Positions 25,209 to 26,024 of a DNA stretch of 39,980 bases are shown here, piece after piece. Within the stretch, counting starts at the first letter, position 1; the number at the start of each line of letters is the position of its first letter. Source of the stretch: an uncultured Lachnospiraceae bacterium (GTDB lineage: Bacteria; Bacillota; Clostridia; Lachnospirales; Lachnospiraceae); NCBI GenBank assembly GCA_947623805.1, contig CANQHZ010000031.1:1-39980 (forward strand), given 5' to 3'. The position numbers and the translations under genes are program-made. The notes beneath the pieces are model-generated. The model did no database searches and was not told the origin of the DNA. It worked only from the letters and a program-made list of their open reading frames with translations.

Positions 25209-25236
25209 AGTACCAAAAAGTGTACTTTTTGATACT
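25209..25236 (+). other. Putative recombinase crossover site 1
   Basis: A 28-bp near-palindrome: arms AGTACCAAAAAGT and ACTTTTTGATACT (one mismatch) around the dinucleotide GT. This is the format of small serine recombinase crossover sites, which cut around a 2-bp centre. It matches site 2 (25377-25404) in inverted orientation at 24 of 28 positions. Confidence 0.6.
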
Positions 25237-25376
25237 GTCTTTATAGACATTGCTGAGGTATGTCTAACGTTGCCTAAGCGTAATTAATTTACATATTTAA
25301 GTTCAAATTTGGAGTATATTTTATTTATGCATATCTTTATAGACATTAGAAATGTTTATGTGATATAATTAAGAAC
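25237..25376. promoter_or_regulatory. Putative invertible promoter segment
   Basis: This 140-bp non-coding stretch lies between two inverted 28-bp sites. On the plus strand TAGACA (25340-25345), 18 bp, TATAAT (25364-25369) with TG before it is a strong promoter that points away from the membrane gene and into the recombinase gene's antisense strand. Inversion would turn it towards the membrane gene. A weaker minus-strand candidate (TTAGAC, 16 bp, TATAAA near 25241-25268) exists in the present orientation. TCTTTATAGACATT occurs twice (25238-25251 and 25334-25347) as a direct repeat, perhaps an accessory binding site. Confidence 0.5.
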
Positions 25377-25404
25377 ATAATCAAAAAGTACAATTTTTGA
25401 TACT
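25377..25404 (-). other. Putative recombinase crossover site 2
   Basis: Arms ATAATCAAAAAGT and AATTTTTGATACT around the dinucleotide AC, which is the complement of GT in site 1. Read on the minus strand it matches site 1 at 24 of 28 positions, including GTACTTTTTGAT without change. Two sites in this orientation would give inversion, not deletion. It lies 8 bp beyond the stop of the recombinase gene. Confidence 0.6.
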
Positions 25405-25412
25405 TTTATATT

Positions 25413-26024
25413 TTAATTCTTTATATTTTTCCACTTATATTCTTTCACTCTCCTATAAAATGTAGCTTTGCTAACATTGCACTTATTTATCGCTTCATTC
25501 AGTGTTATTTTCTTATTTTCCCACTCAAAGATTATTTTATCAAAATCATTTGGGACGCTTACCCTTGGACGACCAAAGCTTACTCCTTTTTGTTTCGCTG
25601 CCAATATGCCTTGCGCCTGTCGCGCCTTAATATTTGAACGCTCGTTTTCTGCCACAAATGACAAAATTTGCAAGACCAAGTCTGCAATGAATGTTCCCAT
25701 TAAGCTTTTACCATTTCTCGTATCTAGTAACGGCATATCAATTACACATATATCAACTTTCAATTCCTTTGTCAGTATTCTCCATTGGTTCTGAATCTCA
25801 CTATAATCTCTCCCAAGTCTGTCTATGCTCAAAATATACAATAAGTCACCTTCCTCTAAAATATTAATCAATTCTATATAACCTGGTCTGTTAAAATCCT
25901 TTCCCGATTGTTTATCTATAAATATATTATTTGCATGAACTCCCTTTTCCATAATTGCAACTATTTGTCGTTCTTCATTCTGATTAACACTTGAAACGCG
26001 GGCATAACCATAAACTTTACACAT
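25413..26024 (-). CDS. Small serine recombinase (invertase/resolvase family)
   Basis: A 203-aa serine recombinase. The catalytic domain (about 1-140) has the nucleophilic Ser in YARVSS near residue 10, [24 protein letters not shown] and the [13 protein letters not shown] helix with FGRPR. A C-terminal helix-turn-helix (about 160-200, [21 protein letters not shown]) completes the DNA-binding part. The length matches Hin/Gin invertases and Tn3-type resolvases. GGAGG precedes the ATG. Two inverted 28-bp palindromes lie just downstream, between it and a membrane gene, pointing to a local inversion system rather than a transposon: no transposase is present. Confidence 0.93.

Follow-up and report, generated by a model that had tools for sequence, protein, structure and literature searches.

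A candidate invertible-promoter cassette with an adjoining serine recombinase ahead of a GT-C-like membrane-protein gene in a Lachnospiraceae bacterium

Organization of the locus

The window analyzed here is the whole stretch of 39,980 nucleotides from an uncultured Lachnospiraceae bacterium. On its minus strand, a serine recombinase gene, a 28-bp site (site 2), a non-coding segment, another 28-bp site (site 1), and a membrane-protein gene follow one another in this order. Site 1, on the target side, spans 25209 to 25236 with the crossover dinucleotide GT at 25222-25223, and site 2, on the recombinase side, spans 25377 to 25404 with AC at 25390-25391 and lies 8 nt from the recombinase stop codon. 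The interior of the segment occupies 25237 to 25376, and the crossover centers are 168 bp apart, corresponding to 16.0 helical turns. Site 1 and site 2, the latter read in reverse complement, share 24 of 28 bases. Site 1 is itself a near-palindrome, with 24 of its 28 positions self-complementary, and site 2 was the poorer palindrome (18/24 over 25379-25402). These comparisons bear out the preliminary description of this DNA, which had reported two 28-bp near-palindromes around 140 non-coding bp, with centers GT and AC and a 24/28 inverted match. In the 460 nt 3' of the recombinase the inverted-repeat score was 23, and the best of 400 dinucleotide shuffles reached 15. A promoter-bearing non-coding segment between inverted repeats, the arrangement by which invertons are recognized, was thus found at the window locus. 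The Rfam scan of 24900-26400 returned no matches.

A direct repeat, CTTTATAGACATT, occurs twice in the segment, at 25239-25251 and 25335-25347, with one copy overlapping the -35 box of the promoter described below. Each copy adjoins, by eye, an imperfect inverted AGACAT/ATGTCT-like partner, and the repeats together with these partners are possibly an operator.

The serine recombinase

The recombinase gene (25413-26024, minus strand) encodes a protein of 203 aa with a resolvase N-terminal domain (PF00239, E 4e-26). Its frame is open, and R9, S11, D37, S40, R46, D68, R69, and R72, to which we assign presumed catalytic roles via gamma-delta numbering, are in place. Across ten relatives all of these residues were invariant except R69, which was nearly so, and from its sequence the enzyme looks intact. 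A terminator-like hairpin predicted upstream of the gene at 26184-26213 (minus strand) suggests separate transcription of the recombinase.

The nearest solved structure was that of Sin (2r0q, E 7e-33), followed by the Tn3 (4e-21) and gamma-delta (6e-21) resolvases; two PDB entries named DNA-invertase, which we take to be Gin, matched only at 4e-11 and 7e-11. Judged by these matches, the recombinase is nearest to Sin-type resolvases and not to Hin/Gin, and the sites are nevertheless laid out for inversion. At the counterparts of Hin residues 47, 48, and 51, aligned by eye with the Hin sequence, it presumably carries I, E, and N. Basic residues at these Hin positions are typical of invertases, according to PMC3798978. 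By sequence similarity the recombinase is outside the Fis-dependent Hin/Gin/Cin group. The NCBIfam Mpi model gave 35 bits against a cut-off of 272, and by that cut-off the protein is not in the Mpi family. The top NCBIfam match was XisF with 59 bits, below its cut-off of 375.

Promoter in the segment and the target gene

Within the segment, a predicted sigma-70-type promoter (25340-25369, plus strand) is aimed at the 3' end of the recombinase, an orientation designated OFF for the target. It matches the consensus at 11 of 12 positions, with an imperfect -35 box (TAGACA at 25340), an 18-bp spacer, and a TG before the -10 box (TGA-TATAAT, ending at 25369). Since the scan yielded 13 promoter-like sites where 10.0 (sd 3.2) were expected, the promoter is notable for its strength and place, not for the number of matches. 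When inversion was modelled, it scored 13.9 toward the membrane-protein gene, and transcription would be expected to begin about 80 nt before the ATG; as assembled, no match toward that gene scored above 10.1, and the one with this score lay outside the segment. Both earlier statements about this promoter, that TAGACA-18-TATAAT is aimed away from the membrane gene and that inversion would aim it into that gene, agree with these results. No terminator was predicted on the plus strand over 24900-26350.

The target gene (23060-25156, minus strand) encodes 698 aa with a predicted GT-C glycosyltransferase fold and a beta-sandwich N-terminal domain (28-171). Its likely start is the ATG at 25156, behind the ribosome-binding site GGAGG (25162-25166, minus strand, located by sequence), rather than the TTG that the ORF list gives at 25216; the frame is open and the ribosome-binding site good. 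DNA homology to the cassette-free orthologue in genome G026 stops at 25166. Six orthologues elsewhere were without recombinase and without site pair; two weaker candidates, in G034 (E 8e-6) and G007 (E 1e-4), were dropped. Pfam searches gave no match for the window target at E up to 5 and nothing convincing for its relatives, and the PDB profile search of the target had no matches. The predicted fold agrees with the original reading of the gene as GT-C-like. The product is predicted to be GT-C glycosyltransferase-like and would probably use a lipid carrier as its sugar donor outside the membrane. Another large membrane protein (680 aa, window 4356-6398), about 17 kb off, was likewise without a convincing Pfam or NCBIfam match.

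Recurrence of the cassette in relatives

A scan with one genome per species found at least 578 relatives of the recombinase among at least 593 matched stretches, of which the best 80 were used. Together with whole-genome loci, and after removal of identical recombinases and matches shorter than 150 aa, these made 108 distinct loci. An inverted repeat with a score of at least 14 followed the recombinase in 65 of 106 loci with at least 200 nt downstream; it occurred in 0/318 shuffles and 3/102 upstream stretches. Nine loci, mostly more distant (L038 and L043 to L050), were left out of the counts; a qualifying repeat near the stop codon was absent from all of them.

With 96 loci added from viral contigs and family genomes, the first set comprised 204 loci, 190 of them usable. 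The repeat was present in 86 of the 190, and in 83 of these 86 its first arm lay at most 60 nt beyond the stop. A cassette was defined by both features, a repeat score of at least 14 and a first arm within 60 nt of the recombinase stop. The full cassette (recombinase 3' end, site, promoter, site) was found in 83/190 usable loci of the first set and, by the same rule, in 18/57 of a second set of 61 new distinct loci (11 duplicates removed, 57 usable). The remaining 39/57 fail the full rule, which also requires position; L322 and L312 failed by position. By source, the repeat in the first set was carried by 80/128 cellular loci and 6/62 viral-contig loci, with no detectable repeat in 48/128 and 56/62, respectively. 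A link of the cassette to viral contigs was set aside, the repeat being carried by only 6 of the 62 usable loci there.

The crossover dinucleotide was asymmetric and inverted between the sites in 74/83 cassettes of the first set and 14/18 of the second. The first-set pairs were GT/AC (52), AC/GT (11), CT/AG (5), AG/CT (3), AA/TT (3), AT/AT (7), and other (2); the palindromic AT crossover was also found in 4/18 cassettes of the second set. An exact search for the consensus site pair with spacing 90-119, a range outside which the window's own pair falls, found, across 392 genomes of the order, three loci in two genomes, with none for the reversed-pattern control. All three adjoin this recombinase, which in one case has an internal stop. 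The recombinase itself was present in 37 of 299 sampled family genomes (E 1e-80) and 40 of 341 sampled class genomes (E 1e-60), the window's own genome being counted in both.

Three loci had unusual layouts. At L111 (10001-11432) two recombinases are in tandem, and the second apparently lies inside a site-like pair about 800 bp apart, a Hin-like layout. At L055 (G005:C141) the recombinase frame enters the first site, whose arm begins 18 nt before the stop, and at L054 (G051:C1), where the recombinase frame is extended, a site is found about 110 nt ahead of its stop. Because the frame runs into the first site, inversion at L054 and L055 would alter the recombinase C-terminus.

The window's own genome holds five recombinase genes of this kind, the one in the window included. 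A site-pattern search allowing up to three mismatches found pairs at contigs C31 (the window), C8, C51, and C24, and C46 carries a different site pair. The ends of C24 and C89 have about 77 bp in common by eye and, joined, give one cassette. The genes after these cassettes differ from one another: C8 and C51 carry near-identical operons with a glycerol-3-phosphate cytidylyltransferase-like gene, and C24 a peptide-synthetase operon (both named by eye). The contig breaks at C89/C24 and C46 were not claimed as a sign of mixed orientation; by eye, the C89/C24 break precedes the site.

Helical phasing of the sites

Crossover-center distances in the 83 first-set cassettes cluster near 105, 115, 126, 136-138, 146, 156, 167, and 178 bp. 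Of the periods scanned, from 6 to 16 bp, 10.5 bp was the best (R 0.63, n = 83). In the set thinned to recombinases less than 85% alike (n = 72), the best period was 10.55 (R 0.655, Rayleigh p about 4e-14), and a control with jitter of up to 6 bp gave R of at most 0.43 in 2000 trials. At 10.5 bp the second set (n = 18) gave R 0.76 with nearly equal phase (p 3e-5, V-test z 4.5), and its own best period was 10.3. These p-values assume independent loci, which relatives are not; the thinning and the replication lessen this problem and do not abolish it. As evolutionary evidence, the 10.5-bp phasing over natural sites indicates that these switches are constrained by short-range synapsis.

Most -10 boxes of the family promoters end at some 28, 39, or 50 nt from the center of the outgoing site, in steps of nearly one turn; the site-to-site constraint together with common descent may account for this. 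In the window this distance is about 20 nt, nearer than is usual in the family.

Genes downstream of the cassettes

As the next gene we took the first mechanical ORF that reached 80 aa, for 63 first-set cassettes, four of which had too short a contig. It was co-oriented with the recombinase in 56/59. Fifty of these 56 ORFs were scanned with Pfam (6 short ones were left out), and the tally displays 25 of 56 families. The targets included glycan and wall families (Glyphos_transf, GtrII, LicD, IspD-like, MBOAT, and Glycos_transf_2), surface repeats (Flg_new, fn3, Cohesin, and Collagen), AMP-binding enzymes (3), and TnpB-like proteins (7). Among further targets were UvrB, a response regulator, and FtsK-like, radical-SAM, and zinc-ribbon proteins, so the functions are not all of the surface. 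The cassette is a compact, portable switch of one recombinase and one promoter that recurs ahead of very different genes, and switching in Clostridia could therefore be predicted from sequence.

The TnpB/Cas12f TNB domain PF07282 was present in 7/50 scanned first targets (L006:7922-9376, L007:10689-12143, L052:2558-4012, L055:2649-4079, L134:10849-12159, L070:13186-14529, and L071:2302-3639), three identified singly and the remaining four assigned by likeness. Six of them, when aligned, kept the zinc-finger cysteines. Acidic residues were absent at what we take to be the three RuvC motif places, and for that reason these targets may be TldR-like proteins that lack nuclease activity and are controlled by an invertible promoter.

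Orientation of the segments

Flipped copies were sought among 122 segments, which formed nine groups by interior homology at E of at most 1e-6. Both orientations occurred in two of the nine groups and a single orientation in seven. In the first flipped pair, C8 of the window's own genome (G000) and G026:C7, the flanks matched in plus sense at 87% over 661 nt (recombinase side) and 96% over 1389 nt (target side), and the interior matched in minus sense only. In the second, G104:C53 and G183:C5, the flanks likewise matched in plus sense (79% over 629 and 80% over 1098) and the interior in minus sense (79% over 76). Segment matches with E above 1e-6, some of them in minus sense, were excluded as flips.

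The palindromes could be a resolvase-type site (res/resH-like) serving resolution or deletion, or a recombinase operator, with an incidental promoter. Such a reading would suit a protein nearest to Sin, then to Tn3 and gamma-delta, and far from the invertase entries, and the palindromic AT crossover (7/83 and 4/18) would permit deletion. An asymmetric, inverted crossover dinucleotide, however, implies inversion and not deletion; it was found in 74/83 and 14/18 cassettes, two homologous pairs were found inverted, and the next gene was co-oriented in 56/59. The crossovers and the natural flips led us to reject a res site or an operator alone, which we hold to be very improbable, and the same two lines of evidence support the original reading of inversion instead of deletion.

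The window segment was searched in 98 genomes and matched only itself and partial copies of at most 50 bp, in one orientation and one assembly, so its own flip is inferred. From its relatives' sequences, inversion at the window locus is very likely. The cassette could instead be a relic, a former inverton locked OFF in the window strain, its membrane gene silent or on a weak fixed promoter. In keeping with this, site 2 is the weaker palindrome (18/24) and differs from site 1 at 4 of 28 bases, a weak promoter match (10.1) points toward the target from outside the segment, and no flipped copy of the window segment was found among the 98 genomes. Against these stand the open recombinase frame with its catalytic residues retained, a spacing in helical phase, a promoter near consensus, and an open target frame with a good ribosome-binding site, and we think a locked relic unlikely compared with a switch that still inverts.

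Promoter direction was called from matches that scored 11 or more and lay 60 nt or less from the outgoing site. Among the 72 cassettes of the thinned first set, 43 promoters pointed toward the recombinase and 6 toward the target, with 5 more toward the target beyond 60 nt; in the second set (18), 12 pointed toward the recombinase and 3 toward the target. Orientation was unambiguous, with a promoter on one strand and enough sequence, in 64 of 90 cassettes, and 55 of these 64 were OFF (promoter toward the recombinase) and 9 ON. Under a rule demanding a score margin of 2 (83 cassettes), 36 pointed toward the recombinase and 8 toward the target; since 39 were undecided, many cassettes are not callable by promoter score alone. 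As assemblies tend to display the majority form, OFF seems to prevail.

The target-side hairpin of the window (site 1, minus strand), followed by TTTTTAT, had a predicted energy of -12.0 kcal/mol in the OFF form versus -7.6 in the ON form. Over the 64 cassettes it was stronger in OFF in 34 and in ON in 20 (by at least 1 kcal/mol; Wilcoxon p 0.017), and a T-rich tail after the hairpin was not general in 12 cassettes inspected. The site was not adopted as an orientation-dependent terminator, the family effect being weak.

Interpretation

With high confidence, we regard the window locus as a phase-variation cassette in which the recombinase inverts a promoter and so switches the GT-C-type membrane gene. 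The preliminary description had proposed a phase-variable switch; site geometry, the recurrent cassette, helical phasing, and flips at sister loci support it, the phasing and flip support for the window locus stemming mostly from sister cassettes. In the proposed mechanism, the recombinase (25413-26024) would bind the two inverted 28-bp sites, pair them over 168 bp (16 turns), cut at GT, and rejoin the segment reversed, as the sites and the sister-locus flips indicate. In the assembled orientation, the promoter would fire at the 3' end of the recombinase and leave the membrane gene without a strong promoter (OFF). Once inverted, this promoter would start transcription about 80 nt upstream of the membrane-gene start codon (ON). 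The switched product, on the predicted fold, would be a GT-C-type membrane protein, probably a sugar transferase that acts outside the membrane with a lipid-carried donor.

The promoter might instead act mainly as an antisense promoter against the recombinase, target switching being secondary. Its direction in 55/64 unambiguous cassettes, the closeness of the first arm to the recombinase stop in 83/86, and the lack of a predicted plus-strand terminator in 24900-26350 would fit, but the first downstream gene is co-oriented in 56/59 and ON-oriented cassettes exist (9/64). Little probability is given to an antisense role in place of the promoter switch.

Because the first site lies near the stop and no plus-strand terminator was predicted, the promoter in the OFF state could nonetheless transcribe antisense to the recombinase as part of the switch. 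On this we base a tentative hypothesis of a self-latching switch, which we consider possible but on balance doubtful: OFF antisense would lower the recombinase and hold the OFF state, and ON would lift the brake, so that the recombinase would soon flip the segment back. If true, it would explain the 55:9 excess of OFF and would cover about a hundred cassettes found here in Clostridia, whose targets are glycan, surface, peptide-synthetase, and TnpB-like genes, the last apparently nuclease-dead. With OFF in excess and the recombinase beside the promoter, orientation-dependent self-control can be tested directly.

Comparison with known systems

Gut Clostridia invertons with a nearby recombinase and orientation changes in reads have been described in hCom2, and the main Clostridia inverton group 139 was tied there to a tyrosine-type recombinase group; in the main text, 'serine recombinase' and 'resolvase' have no occurrences (PMC11892184). 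The window cassette resembles group 139 in being from gut Clostridia with a recombinase nearby and differs in that its recombinase is of serine type. A full-text literature search, covering its sources in part, found no description of the cassette, and the tables of a 2019 invertible-promoter survey may list such loci. The inverton is known in principle; within the partial literature searched, a widespread, helically phased, OFF-biased serine cassette is unreported.

Mpi, the master invertase of Bacteroides fragilis, is a serine recombinase working several invertible promoters in one genome. The present enzymes are likewise serine recombinases with invertible promoters, whereas each cassette studied here has its own adjoining recombinase, by the way in which the cassettes were found.

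Hin-type crossovers are 2 bp long, and the hin gene lies inside its own invertible segment. The Salmonella Hin/hix system, Gin, and Cin share with the window a serine recombinase, inverted sites, and promoter inversion. According to PMC3798978, Hin inverts a promoter in a segment of about 1 kb between inverted 26-bp sites with a Fis-bound enhancer, in contrast to the 168 bp between crossovers here. In the same paper Sin appears as a resolvase that has regulatory sub-sites. Sin and the Tn552-type resolvases are the closest solved relatives of the window recombinase; unlike Sin, the window has two inverted sites, and no sub-site array was recognized on informal inspection.

In layout the cassette resembles fimE-fimS-fimA, the type 1 fimbrial switch of E. 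coli. There, as here, recombinase, switch, and target are co-oriented in this order with the target directly after, and the 3' end of the recombinase gene adjoins a short invertible segment whose promoter faces the recombinase when OFF. This order was found at the window, and in the family 56/59 next genes were co-oriented and 55/64 cassettes OFF. Orientational control of fimE is a precedent for orientation-dependent control of a recombinase. FimB and FimE are tyrosine recombinases and fimS is 314 bp, whereas the window has a serine recombinase (PF00239) and 168 bp. The latch, if true, would be a convergent serine-enzyme version of fimE orientational control.
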